DNA from: Lysobacterales bacterium | Lineage (GTDB): Bacteria; Pseudomonadota; Gammaproteobacteria; Xanthomonadales; SZUA-36 | Direction of reading: 5' to 3' | Assembly: GCA_011773845.1 (NCBI GenBank) | Contig: WVWV01000042.1 | Span: 8,251 to 66,305 of the forward strand | Length of the DNA stretch: 58,055 bases | Part shown: positions 23,357 through 39,001 of the stretch, piece after piece | How positions within the stretch are numbered: the first letter of the stretch is position 1 | Layout of the letters: each line of letters opens with the position of its first letter | The notes under the pieces: generated by a model | Seen by the model: the letters and a program-made list of their open reading frames with translations, nothing else | The model's database searches: none | Told to the model about the DNA's origin: nothing | Position numbers and translations under genes: made by a program

Positions 23357-24709
23357 ATGCCCACAACCCAATACGACCTTCCCGTGCTGAACGATTCCAT
23401 GCGCCGCAGCGCGGCGGCCTGGCTGATCCTGGGGCTGGCCGCGCTGGTCTGCGCCGGGATCTATTCCATTCTGCTGGTGCTCTCGCGCACACCCGTGGTG
23501 CAGGAATTGACGCCGTTCATCGATTTCTTCCACGTGGCGCTGGTGGTGCACGTCGACCTGTCGGTCCTCATCTGGCTGCTGTCGCTGGCCGGCGTGTTCT
23601 GGGCCCTGGGCGCGGACCGCGAACTGCCGGCCTGGGACCGCACGTCGTTCTGGCTGGCCGCCGCGGGCACCGCGATCGTGATCCTGGCCCCGTTCCTGGG
23701 TGCCGGGCGACCGCTAATGAACAACTACGTGCCGCTTCTTCAGCATCCGGTGTTCTATGCCGGCCTGGCCCTGTTCGCGGCGGGCAGCTGCAGCCACCTG
23801 CTGCGCTCGCTGCTGGGCGGACGGCCACCCCGCCCGCTCGACGGTCCGGCCGCGCTGCATCATGGCATCCGGTTCTCGGCCGTGGTCACGGCCATCGCGA
23901 TCGCCGCCTTCGGGGCCTCGTGGGCCGGCATGTCCACTGCCATGGATGGACAGGTCTTTTTCGAGTTCCTGTTCTGGGGCGGCGGGCACGTGCTGCAATT
24001 CACCTACACACTGCTGATGATGATCGCCTGGGTGGTGCTGGCCTCCGCCAGCGGCTGCCACTTCGAACTGACGCCGCGGCTGACCCTGACCTTCCTGCTG
24101 CTGCTCGCGCTGCCGGTCATCACCGTGCCGTTTCTGTATGCCGCCCACGACGTCGTGTCCCCCGGCCACCGGCTGGCATTCACCGAGCTGATGAAATACG
24201 GGGGGCTGTCCTGCCTGCCGCTGGGCGCCGCGGTGCTGGCCAGCCTGTTCCGGGCCCAGCCTCCGGTCGGGCCGGCCCGCTACCTGAGGGCGGCTTTGCT
24301 GTCCTCGCTGGTGCTGTTCGCGGTCGGGGGTGTTCTGGGTTTCATGGTCTCCGGATTGGACATCGTGATCCCGGCCCATTACCACGGCTCGACCGTGGGC
24401 GTCACCATCGCCCTCATGGGGCTCAGCTACCACCTGCTGCCGCGCCTGGGGTTCGGGCCGCCGCACCAGCGCCTGGCCTTCTGGCAGCCGGTGGTCTATG
24501 GCGGCGGGCAGTTGATGCACATCGTCGGCCTGGCCTGGTCCGGCGGTTACGGCGTGCAACGCAAGGCCGCCGGGCTGGCCCAGGGCCTGGACCGCGTCGG
24601 CGAGATCGCCGGCATGGGGCTGATGGGCCTGGGCGGCCTGGTGTCCGTGATCGGCGGGGTCATGTACCTGGTCGTGGCCTACCTGTCGATCGCCGCGCGG
24701 AGGCCATGA
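23357..24709 (+). CDS. Orphan haem-copper oxidase subunit I-like membrane protein
   Basis: A 450-aa protein with about 12 helices. Helix II carries FFHVALVVHVDL, helix VI GGGHVLQF, and helix X the HxH haem pair in IPAHYHGSTVG followed by LSYHLLPRLG. These mark the haem-copper superfamily. The CuB site looks incomplete: the His-His of helix VII is reduced to one His (YAAHDVVSPG), and the position four after the helix VI His is Phe, not Tyr. No subunit II or cytochrome c is adjacent, only a 61-aa membrane protein overlapping at ATGA. It may be an NO-reductase-like or regulatory homologue. Catalytic type is unknown. Confidence 0.75.
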   Translation: MPTTQYDLPVLNDSMRRSAAAWLILGLAALVCAGIYSILLVLSRTPVVQELTPFIDFFHVALVVHVDLSVLIWLLSLAGVFWALGADRELPAWDRTSFWLAAAGTAIVILAPFLGAGRPLMNNYVPLLQHPVFYAGLALFAAGSCSHLLRSLLGGRPPRPLDGPAALHHGIRFSAVVTAIAIAAFGASWAGMSTAMDGQVFFEFLFWGGGHVLQFTYTLLMMIAWVVLASASGCHFELTPRLTLTFLLLLALPVITVPFLYAAHDVVSPGHRLAFTELMKYGGLSCLPLGAAVLASLFRAQPPVGPARYLRAALLSSLVLFAVGGVLGFMVSGLDIVIPAHYHGSTVGVTIALMGLSYHLLPRLGFGPPHQRLAFWQPVVYGGGQLMHIVGLAWSGGYGVQRKAAGLAQGLDRVGEIAGMGLMGLGGLVSVIGGVMYLVVAYLSIAARRP

Positions 24710-24906: not shown

Positions 24907-26754
24907 TCACCAGTGCTTGGCGGGAAAACGAATCGGCGTCGGCGGCGGCCAGGCGAGCCCCGCCTCCTCGATACGAGCCCGGAACCGGGGCGTGGCCTCG
25001 AGGTCGAAGGGGGCGCCGCAAAAACAGTTCTCCACCGTCGAGATCAGCAGTAGCGGCCCACCGAGGCGCGCATCGATGGCCGCCGCCGCCTCGTTGGCCA
25101 GTTGCCGGTCGCCGAGCGCGGCGCCCACCAGCACGCGGTTCATGTCATCCACGTGCTCGCGCGCGCTGAAGTCGTCGAATAACGCGCGGGCCGCGGCGAT
25201 CTGGTTGGCGATGGCGTGCCCGAAAATGGTGCGCGGTACCTGGTAGGTGCTGTCCGCCGGCGTCGGGCCGAAGAAACCCGGCTCGTCGACCCAGCGGCCG
25301 GTGGCCTGCAGCAAAAAGTAGCGGGAGTCGTCCGCCCAGGCCTCGTAACCCTGCTGCTCGAGCCACCGCTCGACCATGACCAACGCCTCTTCCGCGCGGC
25401 CGTCCCAGGTCAATGCCTGGGCGGCCTGCTGCACGGGCGTGCCGGCCAGCGGGTCGCACTGGACCACGGCCAACTGGTGCGTGGCCAGCGCTCCCGCCCA
25501 GCCATAGGGGGCGCCCAGGGCCGACATCCAGTTCAGCCAGTTACAGTCACCGGGCTCGAACGCCTTCTCGAGCCGGCGCGTGAGGCCGCGCCAATCGTCG
25601 CTGAACAGGGCGAGCTCGGTCTGCAGGGCCGCGCGCAGGGGCTCGTTGTTGGCCGCGCGGATGGCGCGCGCCAGGCTGGAACGTATCTCCGCCAGCGCGT
25701 CATCCAGTTCGGCCTGCGGAAAGGCGGCAAAGTTGCCCGCGTGGTCGAACAGCTTGTGACCGTAGAGGTCGGTGCGCAGATACAGGGCATTGCCGATGTC
25801 CGGGACCCGCTCCAGGGCGCGGTCGAACCAGCGATTGGCCTCATCGAGGAGTGGCATGGGGTTCGCGGTCTGGTGCGCCTGGCTGAACAGATCCATGCCT
25901 CGCTGGTAGGCGATGAACGCATCGACGTCGCCAATTCCCGCCCGGCGCATGGAGGCCAGCTTGTGCTCGTCGAGCACCACGTCCAGCTTGCTCGCGATGT
26001 TGGCCGCGATGTCTTCCTGCAGCGCGAAGACGTCCTGCAGGGTGCGGTCGTAGGTCTGCGACCAGAGGTGGAAGCCGTCGGAGGCCCGCACCAATTGCGC
26101 CGTGACCCGCACCTGGTCGCCCGAGCGCCGCACGGAGCCCTCGACCACGTGATCCACCCCGAGCCGCGCCGCGATCTCCGGTATCGGCAGATCCTGGTCC
26201 TTGAAAAAGAACGCAGAGGTGCGCGCGGTGACCAGCAGTTCGGGCAGGCCGGTCAGGTAATTGAGGATTTCCTCGGTCAGCCCATCGGCGAAATAGGCAT
26301 CGTTCTCGCCGCTGCTCATGGTGCGGAACGGCAGCACGGCCACCGACTGGCGCTGCGGCGGCGCTTCCGGGCTTGCCTCGACCGCGACCGGCACCGGCGC
26401 GGCACGTCGGTCGAGGTAGAGTTCGTCGAACGCCAGCCAGGCCACCACCAGGCCCAGGACTGCCAGGATCATGCGATCCAGCTTGCGCCCGGTCTGCCCG
26501 GTGATCGAGCGGCTGCGGTCCACCTCGTGCTCGCGCCTGAGCCCCTCGGGGGTCATTTCGAAGGCCCAGGAGAAAAAAACGGCGAACACCAGCCCGGCCG
26601 CCAGCAGCACCAGCACCGTCTTCATCACCCAGGGAGGGGAGCCGAAGCTGTCCAGGATCAGTTCCAGCACCTGCGCCACCAGCCAGGCGACGACCACGTA
26701 GGCGATCGCGACCCTGAACACGTTGCGGCGTCTGAGTTCGTCGAATAACGACAC
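24907..26754 (-). CDS. Membrane TolB-N / TPR repeat protein (paralogue 2)
   Basis: A 615-aa protein of the same build as the one at 11055. F-D-E-L-R-R-R-N-V-F-R-V is followed by two helices, EMTPEGLRRE, a DRSRSIT segment, a third helix (LDRMILAVLGLVVAWLAF), a TolB-N domain beginning SVAVLPFRTM (about 135-270), and degenerate TPRs. It ends with a conserved-looking RIEEAGLAWPP. The start is GTG at 26754 with GGGAG five bases before it. Its role is unknown; it may sense or relay an envelope signal, but there is no DNA-binding or cyclase domain. It lies next to paralogue 3 across five genes. Confidence 0.8.
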   Translation of the reverse strand: MSLFDELRRRNVFRVAIAYVVVAWLVAQVLELILDSFGSPPWVMKTVLVLLAAGLVFAVFFSWAFEMTPEGLRREHEVDRSRSITGQTGRKLDRMILAVLGLVVAWLAFDELYLDRRAAPVPVAVEASPEAPPQRQSVAVLPFRTMSSGENDAYFADGLTEEILNYLTGLPELLVTARTSAFFFKDQDLPIPEIAARLGVDHVVEGSVRRSGDQVRVTAQLVRASDGFHLWSQTYDRTLQDVFALQEDIAANIASKLDVVLDEHKLASMRRAGIGDVDAFIAYQRGMDLFSQAHQTANPMPLLDEANRWFDRALERVPDIGNALYLRTDLYGHKLFDHAGNFAAFPQAELDDALAEIRSSLARAIRAANNEPLRAALQTELALFSDDWRGLTRRLEKAFEPGDCNWLNWMSALGAPYGWAGALATHQLAVVQCDPLAGTPVQQAAQALTWDGRAEEALVMVERWLEQQGYEAWADDSRYFLLQATGRWVDEPGFFGPTPADSTYQVPRTIFGHAIANQIAAARALFDDFSAREHVDDMNRVLVGAALGDRQLANEAAAAIDARLGGPLLLISTVENCFCGAPFDLEATPRFRARIEEAGLAWPPPTPIRFPAKHW

Positions 26755-29208: not shown

Positions 29209-29262
29209 TTAGCGGCGCTCGTGGGCCAACTCGAATGCAACCCATGCAGCAGTGATCGACAT
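29209..29262 (-). CDS. 17-codon leader or micro-ORF upstream of the permease operon
   Basis: The ORF MSITAAWVAFELAHERR has a clear ribosome-binding site (GGGAG, about seven bases before the ATG at 29262). Its TAA lies three bases before the ATG of the 56-aa gene, which has no good site of its own. It may therefore bring ribosomes to that gene or act as a regulatory leader peptide. It could also be chance, but site strength and spacing favour translation. Confidence 0.45.
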   Translation of the reverse strand: MSITAAWVAFELAHERR

Positions 29263-29434
29263 GGTGTTTCTCCCGCCACGGCATCGGCCCCGTGCCGTGC
29301 GGGCCGCCGCACCCGATTATGCCGCATTCATCGCCGCGCTTGAATCATCCCGCACGCGGCGATGCGGGCGCCACCCTGCGGACCATCGCGGGGCCGGTGG
29401 CCGGCGACCGGTACCACGTGCCGGGGCATGCCCG

Positions 29435-29449
29435 TATACTGCGGGCATG
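29435..29449 (+). promoter_or_regulatory. -10 box placed for a leaderless start of TPR paralogue 3
   Basis: TATACT (29435-29440) ends six bases before the ATG at 29447, so the predicted +1 is the A of the start codon. No ribosome-binding site precedes that ATG. A -35 box is not evident. Confidence 0.45.
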
Positions 29450-31282
29450 GCGGACGACCCGCGACCATCACTTTTTGTCGAGCTCAAGCGCCGCAACGTG
29501 TTTCGCGTCGGCGTGGCCTACATCGCCGTCAGCTGGGTGCTGCTGCAGATCGGCGATGTGATTTTCGACTTCCTCGAACTGCCGGCCGTGGCGGGCAAGT
29601 TCCTGTTGGCAATCCTCGCCCTGCTGTTCGTGCCCATCCTGGTCTTCGCCTGGGCATACGAAATGACGCCGGAGGGCCTGAGGCGGGAATCGGACGTCGA
29701 CCGCTCCCGATCCATCACCCACGTCACCGGCCGCAAACTGGATTACCTCACCATCGGGCTGGTCGTGTTCGGCGTGGCGTTCGTGGTCGTGGATCGCACT
29801 TTCCTGCACCGTCACGTCGCAGCGCCGGCAACCGTGGAGCAAGCCGCCACCCCGGGCCTGGCGGACGACAACTCGATCGCGGTGCTGCCGTTTGCCGACA
29901 TGTCTCCGCAGGGTGACCAGCAGTACTTCTCCGACGGCATCTCCGAGGAATTGCTCAACCTGCTGTCGCGGGTGGACCGGCTGCGGGTGGCTTCCCGCAC
30001 CTCATCGTTCGCCTACAAGGAACAATCCGGTCTGAGCGTCACCGAGATCGCCGGCGAGCTCAAGGTCGGCCACATTCTGGAGGGCAGCGTGCGCAAGGCG
30101 GGCGACCGCGTGCGCATCACCGCGCAGCTCATCGACGCCGGGCGCGACAAGCACCTGTGGTCCGAAACCTACGACCGCGAGCTCGACGACATCTTCGCCA
30201 TCCAGGACGAAATCGCCAACAGCATCGTCGAGGCCCTGCGCGGCACCCTCGGCCTGGCCGCCGGCGAGGGCGTGATCGAGGTCGAGAAAGCCACCGACAA
30301 CCTGAACGCCTACGACCTGTTCCTCAAGGCCCGCGATCTGTTTCTCAACCGCAGCCGGGAGACATTGCCCGCCGGCATCGAGACCGCGCGGCGGGTCGTC
30401 GAGCTGGACCCGAATTTCGCGCGCGCCTGGGAACTGCTGGGCGCGTTTTACTCGGTCGCGCCTTCCTGGGGCGTGGGCGACAGCGAGGAATATGGGCCGC
30501 TCGTGCAGGAGGCGGTCGATCGCGCGCTCGCGCTGAACCCGGGCCTGGCGTTTGCCTATGCCATCAAGGGCCAGGCCCTGTTCGACAGCGGCTACGTGGA
30601 GTGGGAAGAGGTGCTGAGCCTGATCGGCAAGTCCCTGGAGCTGGACCCCACCGATGCGACCGTGTGGCTGTGGCAGGGCATCGCCGAGCGGTCGCTCGGA
30701 TTCATCGACCGCGCCGCGACCAGCTTCGAGCGCTGCCAGGAACTCGATCCGGCCTACGAGAACTGTTTCAACCACCGGGTCATGGTGTACTTCGACCGCG
30801 GCCAGGCCGAAGCCGGACTGCGCGGTTTCGATGAACACATGGCGCGTTCGAAGGTGCGCACGGTGCACTGGAACCGGTACATGGTGCCCGACCTGGTCAG
30901 GATCGGCGACCGACGTGCCGCGCTGCTGGCGGCGGCCCCGGTCTTCGACAACAACAACGAGGCGGTCAACGACTGGATCGCGCTCCTCGAGCAGCCGGGC
31001 CAGACCGACCCCAGGCACGAGCGGCGCCTGGTGGAATGGGCGGGCGCCCATGACCGGCTCGAAGATCTCTCGATCGTGTGGATGACCATCGGCCGCTATG
31101 ACCTCGTCGCGGCCAATTACGAGACCCGCCTGGCCATGTGGCGCGATGACCTTCGCGACTTTCGCCGATCCGACGATTTCCAGCGCGTGGTCCGGGACTC
31201 CGGCATCGGAGTTTATTGGCGATCCTACGGCTTCCCGCCGCAGTGCCGTCCGCTGGATGGCGATCGCGTCGAGTGCGACTAG
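29447..31282 (+). CDS. Membrane TolB-N / TPR repeat protein (paralogue 3)
   Basis: A 611-aa protein. F-V-E-L-K-R-R-N-V-F-R-V leads into helix 1 (GVAYIAVSWVLLQIGDVIF), helix 2, then EMTPEGLRRE and DRSRSIT as in paralogue 2. Helix 3 follows near 100-120, then a TolB-N domain from SIAVLPFADMS (about 140) to EGVIEVEK (about 285), and TPRs to about 560. Two Cys at the C-terminus (PPQCRPLDGDRVECD) could form a disulphide if this part is periplasmic. The start at 29447 looks leaderless. It is divergent from the NCS1 operon, and its function is unknown. Confidence 0.8.
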   Translation: MADDPRPSLFVELKRRNVFRVGVAYIAVSWVLLQIGDVIFDFLELPAVAGKFLLAILALLFVPILVFAWAYEMTPEGLRRESDVDRSRSITHVTGRKLDYLTIGLVVFGVAFVVVDRTFLHRHVAAPATVEQAATPGLADDNSIAVLPFADMSPQGDQQYFSDGISEELLNLLSRVDRLRVASRTSSFAYKEQSGLSVTEIAGELKVGHILEGSVRKAGDRVRITAQLIDAGRDKHLWSETYDRELDDIFAIQDEIANSIVEALRGTLGLAAGEGVIEVEKATDNLNAYDLFLKARDLFLNRSRETLPAGIETARRVVELDPNFARAWELLGAFYSVAPSWGVGDSEEYGPLVQEAVDRALALNPGLAFAYAIKGQALFDSGYVEWEEVLSLIGKSLELDPTDATVWLWQGIAERSLGFIDRAATSFERCQELDPAYENCFNHRVMVYFDRGQAEAGLRGFDEHMARSKVRTVHWNRYMVPDLVRIGDRRAALLAAAPVFDNNNEAVNDWIALLEQPGQTDPRHERRLVEWAGAHDRLEDLSIVWMTIGRYDLVAANYETRLAMWRDDLRDFRRSDDFQRVVRDSGIGVYWRSYGFPPQCRPLDGDRVECD

Positions 31283-31319: not shown

Positions 31320-31715
31320 TCAGGTGTGAATGCGGTCGTGCAGCCGTGCGTCGAAGGTGGCGAAGTGCCGCCCGAACCAATCGGCAAGCCGTTGTTGCAA
31401 CAAACGCAGGCCGGCTTCCCGATCCTCGTCGAAACGATCCATGAAGTCGCGAATCTGGTCCAGCAAGTCCTCGTGGTCTTCCTTGTGCGCCCCGTACTCG
31501 GGGTAGTTTGAGCGCAGCATCAACTGCTCCTCCAGCGCGAAATGCGCCGCGATGCCGGCGTGGATCTCGCCCAGGAAACGCTCGATCGCCGCAGTATCGG
31601 CGTCGCTGCCCATGCGCTCATAGCACTCGTTGATCAACCCGATCATTTCCCGGTGCTCGAGATCCACCGCGGGGATGGCCAGTGAATAGGCGGGTTTCCA
31701 TTGCAGAAGTGTCAT
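31320..31715 (-). CDS. Bacteriohemerythrin
   Basis: A 131-aa four-helix non-haem di-iron protein with every ligand in place: His21, His58 with Glu62 (HxxxE), His77 with His81 (HxxxH), and His117 with Asp122 (HxxxxD). Hemerythrins bind O2 and react with NO, storing or delivering gas to membrane enzymes. It begins four bases after the stop of the cytochrome b fusion gene and so belongs to the SCO / cytochrome b unit. That placement beside a haem-copper enzyme suggests gas delivery or protection. Confidence 0.92.
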   Translation of the reverse strand: MTLLQWKPAYSLAIPAVDLEHREMIGLINECYERMGSDADTAAIERFLGEIHAGIAAHFALEEQLMLRSNYPEYGAHKEDHEDLLDQIRDFMDRFDEDREAGLRLLQQRLADWFGRHFATFDARLHDRIHT

Positions 31716-31719
31716 ATCG

Positions 31720-33759
31720 CTACCTGAAGACGAATCGCTGATCCACGTGATCGAATTCCGCCACCAGGTGCTGGCCACTGGCCAGGGGCACCTGTTGTCG
31801 CAATTCGAAATCGAATCCCTGCGCGCGGCCACTATCCCGCATGCCGATGAACAGCTCGTGGCTGCCGGCCGGCACCTCGAAGCGGCGATACACGGTGGAT
31901 TCGCCGTCTTTCCAGATGCCGCTCGGCGGGTGCGCCCGGCGGTGCAGGGTTTCGCCATCCACGCGAAATTCCACCCATACGGGCAGGCGTTCCCGCGGGC
32001 AGTCGATCGGATTGCGCATGTTCGGAGCGAGGCGCTGCAGCTCCTCCTGGCTCAGGCGACGGCACTCGTGCACCCGCTGCCCGGCCCGCGAGAAGGTCAA
32101 TGAAACCATCGCCTGCCCGGGCTCCAGCAGGCGGTAGGGCGGCCACACCGACAGCGCCGCCACCACCGCGGCAAACGCACCCCAGGCCGCGGCTTGCGCC
32201 AGGCGCCGGCGGCCGGCCGCGGGCGATGCGGCAGCAGGAGATCCCAGCGAGCGCCGGAAGTCCGCCAGCAACCGCCGCAGGTCGGTATGCGCCTGCCATC
32301 GATCGCTCCAGGCCAGGGCAATGCGTTCGCCCGGCACCCGTTTGCGCAGGCGCGGGTCACGCTCGCGCTCGAGGCGCTGCCGGGTCCAGCGCATGCCGAA
32401 GCGGTACTGGCAGTCGCCCGCGCGGCAGCCCGCCAGCACGATGCCGTCGGCCAGCCCCCGGCTCAACACCCAGTCGACGAACGCCGGCGGCAGCTGGGCC
32501 ATGCATTCCAGCCGAACCGCGGCGGTCTGGTGGTCCTCCAGCCGCCTCAGCCCCCGGCTGCCCGCGCAACCGAAGACCAGCACCCGCTGTGTGCCTGCGA
32601 GCCGCTCTGCGCGTTCGCGGATCTCCTCCCGCAACCCGGCCAGCGGCTGGTCCGGCAGGTCGATGCCCGGCACCAGGGCGGTGCGGGTCCGGAACGGCGT
32701 GGCGGTGGGGCAGGCACCGACGCAGATGCCGCACGCCAGGCACAGGGTGGGGTCCACCACCGCCTCGCTGGCATACGCGGTCCCGTCGCTGCGGGGCTCC
32801 ATGGTGATGGCCCCGAACGGGCAGTCGACCGCGCAGCGCTCGCAGCCGTTGCAGTTGCCGAGGTCCACCTGGGCCGACCGGCGGTCCCGCCCGGGTGGCA
32901 GCCAGGGCGCGAGGCACAGCAACAGGCTGATGCCGAGGAGCAGCGCCCACACTGCGCCCGCTGGCCAGGCTTGCATCAGCGGGTAGACCAGCAGGTAATA
33001 CCAATCGAAGGCCAGCGCCTCAGGCACCTGCGCGGGGTCGGCCTTGCCCTGGCTCACGGCCGGGTAAACCAGCGATGCCAGCAGCATCGCCAGCAACGAG
33101 CCGGCCATCAGCACGCGCGGCGGATTGATCTGGGGCCCGTTGAGCCGGAACACGTGCAGCCAGATGCCGAACACCAGGAACAGTGGCAGGCCGATCAGGT
33201 GCAGAAACGCCATCAAGGTGAAGAACCGGTCACTGAGCGCCTCCACGGTAAGGAAATTACGCGCCATGGAATCCGTGAAGATCGGCAGCCGGTCGAGCAA
33301 CTCCGCCGAGGTGATGGCCACATAGTGCGCCAGCTGGTCCCACACCAGCCAGTAACCGGTGATGCCGAGCGGAAACACCAGCCACAGCAGCGGCACGCCC
33401 GTCACCCAGTTGAACCAGCGGGCGCCGCGGTACCGATCATGCGCGAACTCCTTGAGGATGTGCAGTGCCAGCGTGATGATGGCCGCGTCCGAGGCGTAGC
33501 GATGCAGGCTACGCATCACCCCGCCGAGGTACCACTGCTGGTGGGTCAGATATTCGACCGATTCCCAGGCACCGTCGACGCTGGTGCGGAAGAAGATGAA
33601 CAGCCAGATGCCGCTGACCAGCACGATCCAGAAGAAAAAGATGGTCAGCGCGCCGAGGTGGTGCAAGGGATTCAGGGCTGCCGGAGGAAAGCTGCGCGCG
33701 AGGACGAAGCGCAGCGGCTCCAGCGCCAGGCGCAGGAATTTGTGCAGCAGTGCGAGCAA
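31720..33759 (-). CDS. Cytochrome b6-like / 2x[4Fe-4S] ferredoxin / FlpD-MvhD fusion, membrane redox protein
   Basis: A roughly 679-aa fusion. Residues 1-235 are a cytochrome b domain with haem ligands His86/His100 and His187/His202; the second pair has 14 residues between, as in b6. More helices run to about 285. Residues 300-355 hold two ferredoxin clusters (C303, C306, C309, C313; C340, C343, C346, C350). Residues 392-500 match FlpD/MvhD (GCAG, then GCRAGDCQYRFG), with Cys398, 419, 445 and 450. One more helix (about 521-540) precedes an unassigned tail. It probably moves electrons between quinone and a soluble carrier. The start is uncertain: TTG at 33759, 12 bases after the SCO stop, is the only near choice. 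Confidence 0.8.
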   Translation of the reverse strand: MLALLHKFLRLALEPLRFVLARSFPPAALNPLHHLGALTIFFFWIVLVSGIWLFIFFRTSVDGAWESVEYLTHQQWYLGGVMRSLHRYASDAAIITLALHILKEFAHDRYRGARWFNWVTGVPLLWLVFPLGITGYWLVWDQLAHYVAITSAELLDRLPIFTDSMARNFLTVEALSDRFFTLMAFLHLIGLPLFLVFGIWLHVFRLNGPQINPPRVLMAGSLLAMLLASLVYPAVSQGKADPAQVPEALAFDWYYLLVYPLMQAWPAGAVWALLLGISLLLCLAPWLPPGRDRRSAQVDLGNCNGCERCAVDCPFGAITMEPRSDGTAYASEAVVDPTLCLACGICVGACPTATPFRTRTALVPGIDLPDQPLAGLREEIRERAERLAGTQRVLVFGCAGSRGLRRLEDHQTAAVRLECMAQLPPAFVDWVLSRGLADGIVLAGCRAGDCQYRFGMRWTRQRLERERDPRLRKRVPGERIALAWSDRWQAHTDLRRLLADFRRSLGSPAAASPAAGRRRLAQAAAWGAFAAVVAALSVWPPYRLLEPGQAMVSLTFSRAGQRVHECRRLSQEELQRLAPNMRNPIDCPRERLPVWVEFRVDGETLHRRAHPPSGIWKDGESTVYRRFEVPAGSHELFIGMRDSGRAQGFDFELRQQVPLASGQHLVAEFDHVDQRFVFR

Positions 33760-33770
33760 GGCGCAACCGT

Positions 33771-34610
33771 TCAGCCGCGGCGCGGGCGCCGCAGGCCCCG
33801 CCACAGGAACACCAGCACCGTCGCGATCGCGGCCAGGCCGATGGCCATCTGGATGAACAGCGAATAGTCGAAGTGGTACCGGCCGCTGGAGGGGTCGAAG
33901 ACGGTGCAGAACAGGCGGATGCGGTCGACCAGGCCGGCAAACGGCCGCCCTCGCGACTCGGGGCGGTTGAAGACCAGGTCCTTGAGCGGCTCGACCAGCC
34001 ACGGCAGCTCGAACTGCACGCCGTAGACCTGGCTGTAGACCACCCCGCCGGCATCCACCACGCTGACCTGGGTGAGGTGATCGAATCCGCGCGGCGAAGC
34101 GAAATAGATGAATCCGAGGTCAGCGGCCAGGCCCTCGATGGTCTCGGGTGTGGCGCTCAGGAAATCCCAGCCCGGGCGCGACACCGCCTGGGCGCGCGCA
34201 AACGAGCGCATCGCCGCTGGCGTGTCGTTGGCGGTATCGAAACCGACGGTGACCACGTTGAAGGCCTCCTGTCCGAGCACCTCCCGCGCCGCGCCGACCG
34301 CCTCGTCGAGGTGGCGCGTGGTGAGAGGGCACACGTGGTGACAGGAAGTGAAGATCATGCTGATCAACAACGGCTTGCCGGCATATTCCGCCAGGCGCAC
34401 CGGGCTGCCGTCAGGGCGCGTCAACGGGTAATCACCCAGCACGCGTCCGATCGCGGCCTGGGAATACTGCAGGGCCGAGTCGGCATCCCACTGGGCCGAC
34501 CCGGCCGGCTCGGTCGCGAGGCCGGTTCCGGCCAGCAGCAGGGCACACGCCAGCACGACGCGGGCCGCCTGCCGGCGTGGGTTCCTCGTTTGCTCCAGGA
34601 GTCGATTCAT
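33771..34610 (-). CDS. SCO1/SenC family copper chaperone with C-terminal membrane anchor
   Basis: A 279-aa protein with an N-terminal signal (about 17-32), a thioredoxin-fold SCO domain with the copper ligands Cys90 and Cys94 (SCHHVC) and His178 (FDHLTQ), and a C-terminal helix (about 250-270). SCO proteins load the CuA centre of subunit II in the periplasm. The C-terminal anchor is a variant seen in some lineages. It is separated from subunit I by a terminator, so it heads a second unit with the cytochrome b fusion and hemerythrin. The start at 34610 has no clear ribosome-binding site, and an ATG six codons upstream is possible. Confidence 0.88.
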   Translation of the reverse strand: MNRLLEQTRNPRRQAARVVLACALLLAGTGLATEPAGSAQWDADSALQYSQAAIGRVLGDYPLTRPDGSPVRLAEYAGKPLLISMIFTSCHHVCPLTTRHLDEAVGAAREVLGQEAFNVVTVGFDTANDTPAAMRSFARAQAVSRPGWDFLSATPETIEGLAADLGFIYFASPRGFDHLTQVSVVDAGGVVYSQVYGVQFELPWLVEPLKDLVFNRPESRGRPFAGLVDRIRLFCTVFDPSSGRYHFDYSLFIQMAIGLAAIATVLVFLWRGLRRPRRG

Positions 34611-34735: not shown

Positions 34736-36448
34736 TCAGGACAGTGGCCAGACCGAAGCCAGGTACTTCCAGTTGACGGCGTAGTAGATGACAAATATCG
34801 CCAGGAAGAAGAGGGCAAACAAAAAGGTGCCTGGTGCGGCGAAACCCCACCTGCCCGCGGCCGCGTGACCGCCGGACGGGACAATGTCGGGTTGCGCGCG
34901 CATCAGGCGGGAGGTGACCGTTCCATAACTGGATTCGGATCCGACGCGCTTGCCGAAGAACACCGAGACCACCGTGACGAGGATGAACACCGCCCCGCCC
35001 ACGATCGCCGCCATGCCGCTGATGCCCGCGATGCCCATGAGGGTATAGGCGCTCGCCGGATAGTCGAACCCCAGCGCGGAGTCCGTGAAGGCCATGTCCC
35101 AATGGCGCCGTTCGACACCCAGCGTGCCTGCAGCGAGCAGCATGAGGGTGAAGACGCCCATGCCGAAGCCGAACAGGTACGGCTGCCACTTGGCCAGCGC
35201 CGGGAACGCCAGCTGGCGCCGGAACAGCACCGGGATCAGGTAGTAGGTCAATGACATGAAGGCCAGCGTCGTGCCCAGCACCACGGTCGCATGGAAATGC
35301 CCGGGCACGTAGATGGTGTTGTGAATGATGAGGTTGATCTGCTCGGTGCCCATCACCACCCCGGAGATGCCGCCGATGAAGCCGAATCCAATCAGCGAGA
35401 TGAACATCCCGGAGAAGGTGGGATTACCCCATGGCGCCTTGCGCAGCCATTGATAGAGCCCCTTGGTGAGCCCCTTGGCGCGCTGGGCGACCTCGATCGA
35501 GCCCGGCACCGTGAGGCCATGCACCATGCTGGCCAGCACCGCCAGGTACATGGCGTAGCTGGTGTTGAAGATCTTCCACTCGGAGCTCAGGCCGGGGTCC
35601 ACCAGCAGGTGATGGGCGGAGGCGATCTGCAGGAACGCGATGTACAGGAAGAAGGCGGTGCGGCTGACCTTTTCCGACAACGGCTTGGCGCCGAACACGA
35701 TGGCCGCGATGGCGTACCAAACCGCCACGTGCGCCGCCACGTTGATCTGCTGGGAGGAATGTCCGAAGGCCCACCACACCAGCCGATACATGGCCGCATC
35801 GATATGCGCGATCCAGCCCACCGACCACAGGAAGGTGGGGATGAGGATGATCGCGCCCGAGGCGATGGTGAACACTGCAATGATGCAGGCGGTCAGGGCG
35901 CCGAAGGTGACCAGCGGGATCGATCCCTCGTAGGTTTTCTCCTCCTTGGCCACCACCAGGGTACCCAGGAAGATGAAGCAGCCGATCAGGGCGCCCACCG
36001 CGAACAGGATCAGGCCGAGGTAGAACAGCGGGTTGGCCGGCATCGGCACGTAGGAGGTCATCATCACCGATGAATCGCCCCTCAGCACCACCAGGTTGTT
36101 CATCACCGCGCCGGCCACCATCAGCCCGAACGCCACCCAGCCCAGGCGGGGCGTTGCCAGGCGGCAGCGCAGCAGGGTCGAGGAGCAGAAATACAGCACC
36201 GCCATCTCGAAGAAGATGATCCAGAAGATCAGCATGTTGATGCCGTGCAGCGTCAGCAGCTGGTAGTACTGATCGGCCGGAAGCAGATGTATGGCCGGCC
36301 AGCGGGTGAGCGTCACGCCGACCGCGGTGAGGCCGCCGATCAGCAGGATGACCACTGCCACCACGGCATTGGCGCGCATCAGCCATTCCGCCGGGCGGTG
36401 GAATTGCAGGCCCGATTCGGGACAGGTACGGAAGAGTTGAGTCGTCAT
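34736..36448 (-). CDS. B-family haem-copper reductase subunit I, Tyr replaced by Gln (candidate NO reductase)
   Basis: A 570-aa, about 13-helix protein that aligns by eye with Thermus ba3 oxidase: WWxxGH in helix VI, the HH plus VDPG of helix VII, and VPGHFH of helix X. Metal ligands are His68 and His386 (low-spin haem), His384 (active-site haem) and His230, His279 and His280 (CuB). The residue four after His230, Tyr237 in ba3 and essential for O2 reduction, is Gln234 here (GHSSQQ). B-family NO reductases are known to lose this Tyr, so NO reduction is likelier than O2 reduction. It overlaps subunit II by ATGA. Automatic annotation would probably call it cbb3- or ba3-type oxidase. Confidence 0.85.
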   Translation of the reverse strand: MTTQLFRTCPESGLQFHRPAEWLMRANAVVAVVILLIGGLTAVGVTLTRWPAIHLLPADQYYQLLTLHGINMLIFWIIFFEMAVLYFCSSTLLRCRLATPRLGWVAFGLMVAGAVMNNLVVLRGDSSVMMTSYVPMPANPLFYLGLILFAVGALIGCFIFLGTLVVAKEEKTYEGSIPLVTFGALTACIIAVFTIASGAIILIPTFLWSVGWIAHIDAAMYRLVWWAFGHSSQQINVAAHVAVWYAIAAIVFGAKPLSEKVSRTAFFLYIAFLQIASAHHLLVDPGLSSEWKIFNTSYAMYLAVLASMVHGLTVPGSIEVAQRAKGLTKGLYQWLRKAPWGNPTFSGMFISLIGFGFIGGISGVVMGTEQINLIIHNTIYVPGHFHATVVLGTTLAFMSLTYYLIPVLFRRQLAFPALAKWQPYLFGFGMGVFTLMLLAAGTLGVERRHWDMAFTDSALGFDYPASAYTLMGIAGISGMAAIVGGAVFILVTVVSVFFGKRVGSESSYGTVTSRLMRAQPDIVPSGGHAAAGRWGFAAPGTFLFALFFLAIFVIYYAVNWKYLASVWPLS

Positions 36449-36996
36449 GATCCGCCCTCCGTCACGTAGATCTTGCCCACCATGTTGTGGTGGCCGATGC
36501 CGCAGTACTCGTTGCAGATGATGGTTTGCTCACCACTGGTGTCGGGTGTCACGGTGAGCACGATTTCGTAACCGGGCAGGATCTGGGTGTTGATGTTCAC
36601 CGGCTGCAGGGAAAAGCCGTGCTGCCAGTCCATGGAGGCGATGTGCAGCCGGTAGGTCTGGTCTTTCTCCAGCTCCAGCATCGGCCACCATTGCCACAGG
36701 CGGGCGATCAGGTAGACATCGCTGCCGGGCGGCGGACGTACCACGGGAATCTGCTGGTCGGTCTCGGTACGGACCGTATACTCGTTCACCATGGCCATGG
36801 TCTTGGCCTGGAAGGCCTCGGGCGTGGTGCGGTACGCTTCGTTGGAGAGGTTTTGCTTACCGTACACGTGCCACAGCGGCATCATGACGAACATGATGAG
36901 GGACCAGACCAGCGCGATGGCGATCCAGGTCCCTTCGACCCTGTCCAGCGGTTGTTTCCACCACAGGATCTCACTCGGGGGTTGTATCGAACTCAT
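36445..36996 (-). CDS. Haem-copper enzyme subunit II with CuA site
   Basis: A 183-aa protein with one N-terminal helix (about 24-44) and a periplasmic cupredoxin domain. The CuA ligands are His126 (DWQHGF), Cys161, Glu163, Cys165, His169 and Met172 (CNEYCGIGHHNM). It accepts electrons from a periplasmic donor and passes them to subunit I. Its length, with a single helix, matches B-family (ba3) subunit II rather than A-family. It overlaps subunit I by four bases and follows the 54-aa subunit by 20 bases. Confidence 0.92.
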   Translation of the reverse strand: MSSIQPPSEILWWKQPLDRVEGTWIAIALVWSLIMFVMMPLWHVYGKQNLSNEAYRTTPEAFQAKTMAMVNEYTVRTETDQQIPVVRPPPGSDVYLIARLWQWWPMLELEKDQTYRLHIASMDWQHGFSLQPVNINTQILPGYEIVLTVTPDTSGEQTIICNEYCGIGHHNMVGKIYVTEGGS

Positions 36997-38023: not shown

Positions 38024-39001
38024 ATGCGAACGCTGGCTCGCTTCTCGCTGTTGCTGGTGCTCATCCTGGTGGTGGTCAGCGCCTACCTGAGGCTGCACCA
38101 GTCCGGCCTCGGCTGTGCCGACTGGCCGGCTTGCTACGGACAGATCGGTGCCCTCCCGGCGCCCGCCACCGGGGGTGCGGCCGAGGAAGCCTATCGCCGC
38201 ATCCTGGCCGCATCCGATGCCCCGCTGGCCTGGGCCGCGCCGCTGCACCGGCTGGTGGCCACCCTGCTGGGCCTGGCCGTGGTGGTGCTGAACTTGCTGG
38301 CGTTCCGGGCCCGGCAGCACCGGCTGCTGAGTATCTCGTTGCTGGGCCTGACGCTGCTGCTGGCGGCGCTCGGGCTGCGATCCGGTAACCTGCATGACCC
38401 GGCGGTGGTGATGGGCAACCTGGCCGGCGGCTTCGCCATGGTGGGGCTGCTCGGCTGGCTGGCCTTTGAACTCGGCCCGCGCCGGCCGCGCTACACCGAT
38501 ACCCACGTCCGCGCCATCCGGCCGCTCGTCAGGTTGGGCCTGGCGCTGCTGTGCCTGCAAATCCTGCTGGGCGGCCTGACCAGCGTGAACTTCGCCGCCA
38601 CCGCCTGCCCGTCGCTGCCGCACTGCGAGGGCCAATGGTTTCCGGACGCCACGCTGTACGGCGCGCTCAGGCTCGACCGCGCCCGCGCCGTCGACGCCAC
38701 CGGCCACGCGATTGGCGGCCACGAGCGGCAGGCCGTGCACCAGGCCCATCGGGTCGGCGCGCTGCTCGCCGCCGCCGCGCTGCTGGCCGCCGTGATCGCC
38801 GGGCTGCGCGGTGTCACCGCAACGCGGCGGGTCGCGGTCGTGATCCTGGCGGTGCTGGTGGTCGAGTTCGCGATCGGCGTGGTGGCGGTGGTAACCCGCC
38901 TGCCCATCGCGGTGGCGGTGGCACACAACGCGCTGGCCGCAGTGCTGCTGCTGGCGACGATCCGGTTGTGGGTGCTGACACGACGGCCCCGGATGCCCTA
39001 A
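38024..39001 (+). CDS. ctaA: Haem A synthase (Cox15/CtaA family)
   Basis: A 325-aa inner-membrane protein with eight helices in two similar halves. Each half shows the conserved features: LRLHQSGLGCADWPACYG after helix 1 and HRLVATLLG in the first half, and VHQAHRVGALL and AHNALAAVLLL in the second, providing the haem-ligand His residues. It oxidises the C8 methyl of haem O to make haem A. Its placement next to the haem-copper operon implies that subunit I carries an a-type haem. No haem O synthase is seen in the window. Confidence 0.92.
   Translation: MRTLARFSLLLVLILVVVSAYLRLHQSGLGCADWPACYGQIGALPAPATGGAAEEAYRRILAASDAPLAWAAPLHRLVATLLGLAVVVLNLLAFRARQHRLLSISLLGLTLLLAALGLRSGNLHDPAVVMGNLAGGFAMVGLLGWLAFELGPRRPRYTDTHVRAIRPLVRLGLALLCLQILLGGLTSVNFAATACPSLPHCEGQWFPDATLYGALRLDRARAVDATGHAIGGHERQAVHQAHRVGALLAAAALLAAVIAGLRGVTATRRVAVVILAVLVVEFAIGVVAVVTRLPIAVAVAHNALAAVLLLATIRLWVLTRRPRMP

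Follow-up and report, generated by a model that had tools for sequence, protein, structure and literature searches.

The locus examined here raises the question of what a membrane protein that joins cytochrome b6, a ferredoxin and an FlpD/MvhD domain in one chain does beside a haem-copper enzyme. The protein is encoded in a window of 58 055 nucleotides from a Lysobacterales bacterium, the window being the whole stretch of DNA that was analysed. Our study suggests that the fusion is probably the dedicated redox partner, not previously described, of an sNOR-type nitric oxide (NO) reductase, because the two occur in genomes nearly one to one.

The fusion is read from a single unbroken frame on the minus strand (31720..33759), in the order cytochrome b6, two [4Fe-4S] clusters, FlpD, transmembrane (TM) helix and C-terminal domain. 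Translation from a TTG at 33759 gives ~679 aa; this start is plausible, and the same frame is open up to 34002. The frame starts 11 bases past the SCO gene and ends 4 bases short of a haemerythrin gene, and its GC content of 70, 49 and 87 % at codon positions 1, 2 and 3 shows strong coding periodicity. The earlier note, which had described this single-chain architecture, considered that a frameshift or an assembly error might have joined separate genes, and proposed a search for the same domain order elsewhere. A scan of ~85,000 species genomes recovered 206 stretches encoding relatives, of which 80 loci were kept, and an error of this kind is therefore excluded; the same cytochrome b6-ferredoxin-FlpD frame is intact in ~78 alignment rows from separate genomes. 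The C-terminal domain stands as a separate protein in many relatives, as an artefact would predict, but at least nine relatives carry it fused as in the window, and we regard an artefactual origin as extremely improbable.

The cytochrome b6 core (33142..33684, minus strand; residues 30-210) is a four-helix di-haem bundle matching Pfam PF00033 Cytochrome_B at 3e-18, with haem ligands His90, His104, His191 and His206 and a WD motif at 144-145. Its nearest PDB sequences are cytochrome b6, while the nearest fold matches of the fusion are cytochrome b of bc1/b6f complexes, and the best 50 whole-chain matches are all cytochrome b. Two further TM helices (32899..33117, minus strand) follow, carrying a Qo-like xDW[FY] motif (D256-W257) and a weak match to PF00032. 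The dicluster ferredoxin (32698..32880, minus strand; residues 298-358, Pfam Fer4/Fer4_7) has Fer4 motifs across residues 300-356, with cysteines at 307/310/313/317 and 344/347/350/354. The FlpD/MvhD domain (32236..32583, minus strand; residues 397-512) matches PF02662 at 414-491 (9e-9) and aligns to MvhD in PDB entries 5odc and 9sw2. A single TM helix (32149..32208, minus strand; residues 522-541), seen in the hydropathy and in the AlphaFold2 (AF2) model, then connects the C-terminal domain with the cytosolic region. Structure prediction, which the earlier note had also proposed, gave a confident model (87 sequences; pLDDT 92, pTM 0.88) with helices at 219-235, 271-290 and 522-541. No PepSY_TM or CcoG family was found among the Pfam and NCBIfam matches returned for the fusion.

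The four haem histidines and all eight ferredoxin cysteines were present, as had been claimed, and are 100 % conserved in an alignment of 78 homologues; the WD and xDW[FY] motifs are likewise invariant. The claim that ‘the FlpD Cys’ was present was accurate but incomplete, as there are four conserved cysteines rather than one (Cys402, 423, 449 and 454), kept in all 78 rows with the exception of position 454 in one row.

The C-terminal part (31723..32139, minus strand) had previously been left unassigned, and in terms of database matches it stays so: no Pfam or NCBIfam family matched fusion residues ~520-683, a structure search against the PDB returned nothing convincing (best E 0.006, TM ≤0.41), and no metal-binding motif was recognised. 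It is nevertheless identifiable as a small protein family that has been fused in the clade of the window, and whose members in most relatives are independent proteins with one TM helix. The stand-alone form was found in 32 loci as an ORF of ~165 residues with one N-terminal helix; in 31 cases it lies directly downstream of the fusion, in most of them with an overlap of a few bases between the two genes. Two cysteines (Cys570 and Cys591 in the fusion), two arginines and several glycine and aspartate residues are invariant in the family alignment, and AF2 predicts a beta-rich fold (pLDDT 95). The helix count and the charges indicate that the domain is probably periplasmic.

The adjoining genes were as the earlier note described them. 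Directly upstream of the fusion is an SCO/SenC-type copper chaperone (33771..34610, minus strand; PF02630, 1.6e-12), and downstream is a bacteriohaemerythrin (31320..31715, minus strand; NF033749, 93.3 bits, above the cut-off). Beyond the chaperone lie the two subunits of the haem-copper enzyme (34736-36996), NorY (34736..36448, minus strand; PF00115 and alignments) and NorS (36445..36996, minus strand). NorS is a subunit II of the CuA type; its CuA motif (H..CxxxCxxxHxxM) is complete, and all the ligands line up with the Thermus CuA domain 2cua (6e-15). NorY is a B-family subunit I whose best PDB matches are the ba3-type oxidases of Aquifex and Thermus; it keeps the helix VII HH pair, and at the position of the cross-linked tyrosine it has a glutamine (GHSSQQ, with HSSQQ aligned to HPVVY of the ba3-type enzymes). 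The functional tie to the adjacent enzyme that the earlier note proposed is supported, whereas that enzyme appears to be an sNOR-like NorSY with a Tyr to Gln replacement and no generic oxidase. The active-site residue has been given as Asn for sNOR and Gln for eNOR (PMC8756737, Table A4). The glutamine of NorY is at H+4, the tyrosine position, and a conserved asparagine is two residues on at H+6; the sNOR-type label given to this predicted CuA-containing B-family NO reductase therefore rests on gene order and taxonomy and not on the residue. The order norS-norY-SCO-fusion agrees, in gene order only, with the norSY-senC-orf1 cluster of ammonia oxidisers, which has been annotated as a haem-copper NO reductase (PMC4940428, PMC3764937). 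sNOR is a proposed NOR family outside the biochemically characterised NO reductases (PMC11388526), and is described as an electrogenic enzyme that oxidises cytochrome c (PMC8906906).

The same neighbourhood recurs in relatives as an operon of norS, norY, ctaB (haem O synthase), SCO, the fusion, in some cases the haemerythrin, the C-terminal-domain protein and a second haem-copper gene. Among the fusion copies examined in the 80 loci, SCO is immediately upstream in 43 and CtaB directly upstream in 11, with CtaB present in 34 loci overall. A divergent CtaA-like haem A synthase, named from sequence only, is encoded in the window at 38024..39001 (plus strand), and its family recurs beside the fusion in 15 loci. 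Inspection of the recurrent neighbour clusters recognised no Rieske protein, and no hydrogenase, Fdh, HdrA or HdrBC was recognised in the conserved neighbourhood. The second haem-copper subunit I-like protein of the window (23357-24709, plus strand; COX1, 1.3e-12) belongs to a family often found beside the fusion and present in 29/34 carriers. Members of this family have no helix VII His pair for the active site; three residues past the helix VI His they have Gln, and the tyrosine position is taken by Phe. The protein of the window gave no PDB sequence match and may be either gNOR-like or a relative that is not catalytic. Two further genes of the window, at 24907-26754 (minus strand) and 29252-31282 (plus strand), have similar starts (LRRRNVFRV... 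and LKRRNVFRV...); they apparently belong to one family and flank ~3 kb on opposite strands.

The pairing of the fusion with NorY was quantified in 369 evenly drawn Gammaproteobacteria genomes. The fusion was found in 34 and NorY in 33, with both in 32, the fusion only in two and NorY only in one (Fisher p 1e-42, a test that ignores shared ancestry). Ancestry alone is unlikely to be the explanation, since the carriers span 24 families and the pattern is patchy within one family; among close relatives, the fusion and NorY occur in the identical set of 9/41 genomes. The earlier note had allowed for a phylogenetic profile unrelated to haem-copper enzymes, and these counts speak decisively against this. 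Two of the three exceptions look like assembly losses, as one genome (G297) has a NorY fragment and in another (G302) the contig ends just after NorY; the third (G253) is 77 % complete. In groups such as Magnetococcales, Thioploca and Parabeggiatoa the fusion does not adjoin norSY; in such cases the genome almost always encodes NorY at another place: of 19 genomes without norSY seen upstream of the fusion, 16 encode full NorY and two a fragment. NirS shows a weaker link than NorY, being present in 27/34 carriers and absent from the genome of the window. The genome of the window has no FlpD besides that of the fusion, and the same holds for 22/34 carriers, so that no Mvh/Hdr-type partner is implied; the link to hydrogenase, formate dehydrogenase or heterodisulphide reductase that FlpD had suggested left no sign here.

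All 80 loci are from Pseudomonadota in the broad sense. Records of Thermus and Thermomicrobium plasmids that encode sNOR-like enzymes contain no gene for a fusion-type protein. The conduit is therefore no inherent part of the enzyme's chemistry, and the pairing is, as far as tested, a trait of Pseudomonadota. Carriers include Gallionellaceae, Mariprofundaceae and Thiotrichaceae, which are lithotrophic groups; the cultivated Magnetovibrio blakemorei is also a carrier. A search for ammonia oxidisers with the AMO family (PF02461) gave no match in fusion carriers, and none in the controls either. The Magnetococcales fusion adjoins nirS and haem d1 genes (L042:7908-12178, plus strand), with norSY-ctaB-SCO on another contig (L102). 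A Mariprofundaceae contig carries two tandem cytochrome b6-FlpD fusions followed by the C-terminal-domain protein (L026:21-3674, plus strand). Two genomes have one fusion in the norSY cluster and one elsewhere (L084:7776-9449 with L100; L061:7899-9545 with L101), and the L084 copy is beside a multihaem cytochrome c-like gene.

The cytosolic module of the protein is exchanged in paralogues. A second cytochrome b6 copy is fused to a plant-type [2Fe-2S] ferredoxin with FAD and NAD domains (L037:3990-5915, L107), and such FNR-type paralogues are found in several betaproteobacterial and related genomes; the C-terminal-domain protein is also found after this form. One genome has an unusual architecture of cytochrome b6, flavodoxin, FAD and NAD domains, amounting to an NADPH diflavin reductase (L105:1675-4212, minus strand). 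In a maximum-likelihood tree built on the cytochrome b6 region, both forms nest inside the FlpD clade, the diflavin form with support of 98/83 and the FNR forms beside betaproteobacterial FlpD copies. Reductases of both types normally oxidise NAD(P)H, and the membership of the swapped modules in such families is the strongest hint that electrons would run from the cytosol outwards. The common cytochrome b6 is thus most likely a modular conduit driven in this direction.

Taken together, the domains with their ligands, the fold that is predicted, the place in the operon, the nearly one-to-one occurrence with NorY and the exchange of the ferredoxin-FlpD part in paralogues suggest, with a probability of roughly 0.4, that the fusion is a dedicated transmembrane electron conduit for NO reduction by sNOR (NorSY), from the cytosol to the periplasmic face. 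With its cofactor sites occupied and the topology as predicted, electrons would enter on the cytoplasmic side at the [2Fe-2S] site of FlpD, travel via both [4Fe-4S] clusters, reach first haem bN and then haem bP in cytochrome b6, and exit at the periplasmic face, where they would keep NorSY supplied for turnover rather than for assembly. The hand-over to NorSY as final acceptor could be through its CuA subunit, through a quinone on the p-side, or with the C-terminal domain as a docking piece, and the conduit would bypass the bc1/cytochrome c route. The conserved p-side xDW[FY] motif fits quinol oxidation and inward flow equally, and the SCO, CtaB and CtaA neighbours fit a role in maturation as well.

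As a maturation reductase, the protein would act together with SCO and the haem synthases while the CuA or active site of sNOR is being assembled, using electrons from the cytosol to reduce copper, thiols or haem on the periplasmic side. The adjacency to SCO and CtaB, the near-obligate pairing with one client and the precedent of membrane reductases that support haem-copper enzymes (PMC13038864) are in keeping with this, and the support from neighbouring genes is almost equal for maturation and for electron supply. However, two haems and three clusters are a heavy wire for low-flux assembly, the fusion of Magnetococcales is beside nirS and haem d1 genes and away from SCO, and the C-terminal domain has no recognised metal-binding motif; on balance we consider maturation a credible but unlikely role.

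Flow in the opposite direction appears rather improbable. Quinol would here be oxidised at a Qo-like site, with one electron passed to CuA of NorS and the other through the b haems and Fe-S clusters to FlpD, giving low-potential reductant or NAD(P)H for reverse electron transport in lithotrophs. The invariant WD and xDW[FY] motifs and the many carriers in groups known, from general knowledge, as lithotrophic accord with such bifurcation, and a similar proposal has been made for the anammox Rieske/cytochrome b complexes (PMC12954380). It is at odds with the recurrent neighbours, among which no Rieske protein was recognised, with the diflavin variant, whose class normally runs from NADPH to an acceptor, and with those carrier groups that are not known as lithotrophs. 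The cytochrome b6 fold with its Qo-like motif would also suit an oxidoreductase that exchanges electrons between a cytosolic donor and the quinone pool alone, which recalls the quinone-linked gateway of the earlier note. A general pool enzyme without a specific partner would not be expected to track NorY almost one to one, and both NirS and the second haem-copper gene associate less tightly than NorY, making this very doubtful. 

Returning to the dedicated conduit, we tentatively propose, at somewhat less than even odds, a new modular class of transmembrane redox partner for NO reductase. In this class one cytochrome b6 wire would be combined with a new periplasmic domain and with any of three cytosolic electron sources (FlpD/ferredoxin, [2Fe-2S]-FNR and NADPH diflavin reductase); it would either feed NO reduction directly or run it as a bifurcating complex that lacks Rieske.

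Database entries for the fusion gene bear generic names such as ‘cytochrome b N-terminal domain-containing protein’, as on a Defluviimonas plasmid, where the gene adjoins haem o synthase and SCO. A search of the available literature turned up no account of the fusion or its C-terminal family, of the module swapping or of the pairing with NorSY; the single exception was a passing entry in a table (PMC8756737). If the pairing is truly obligate, it offers a way into the question of how sNOR receives its electrons or is put together, and into N2O production, in organisms that nitrify, denitrify or oxidise iron or sulphur; it would also present cytochrome b6 as an interchangeable wire outside the bc complexes.

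Compared with known systems, the fusion shares with cytochrome b of bc complexes and cytochrome b6 the fold, the two His pairs for haems bP and bN, the WD motif and a Qo-like motif. It differs in that PEWY is replaced by xDW[FY], a cytosolic Fe-S/FlpD module is fused on, and neither Rieske nor cytochrome c1 was recognised among the recurrent neighbours. The ferredoxin followed by FlpD, with most of the Cys pattern, resembles MvhD/FlpD of Mvh-Hdr and the ferredoxin-MvhD end of HdrA2, and residues 297-490 match NCBIfam HdrA2; in contrast to these, the fusion is membrane bound, has no recognised HdrA, HdrBC or hydrogenase partner, and leaves the first 25 positions of the FlpD profile unmatched. 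The anammox complexes (PMC12954380) likewise couple cytochrome b with an NAD(P) or Fe-S module in the cytosol; they have several subunits including Rieske proteins, whereas the fusion is one chain for which no Rieske partner was recognised. CcoG and CrpH (PepSY_TM), proposed to support the assembly of other haem-copper oxidoreductases, are also membrane redox proteins linked to haem-copper enzymes, CrpH through haem ligands (PMC13038864), but they belong to unrelated families and the analogy is functional only. Another comparable protein is RME88945.1 (PMC8756737, Table A3), for which cytochrome b6, a DMSOR-beta-like Fe-S domain and FlpD are given in one ORF, as in the fusion; this protein is listed as by-catch on account of an additional c-type (C1) domain, without discussion. 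The published norSY-senC-orf1 cluster resembles the window in its order of norS, norY and SCO followed by one gene, in its subunit II with CuA and in its B-family subunit I without the catalytic tyrosine, and orf1, represented by NE0686 and Nmul_A2664 and with no domains described (PMC4940428, PMC3764937), is a candidate counterpart of the fusion or of its FNR-type paralogue.
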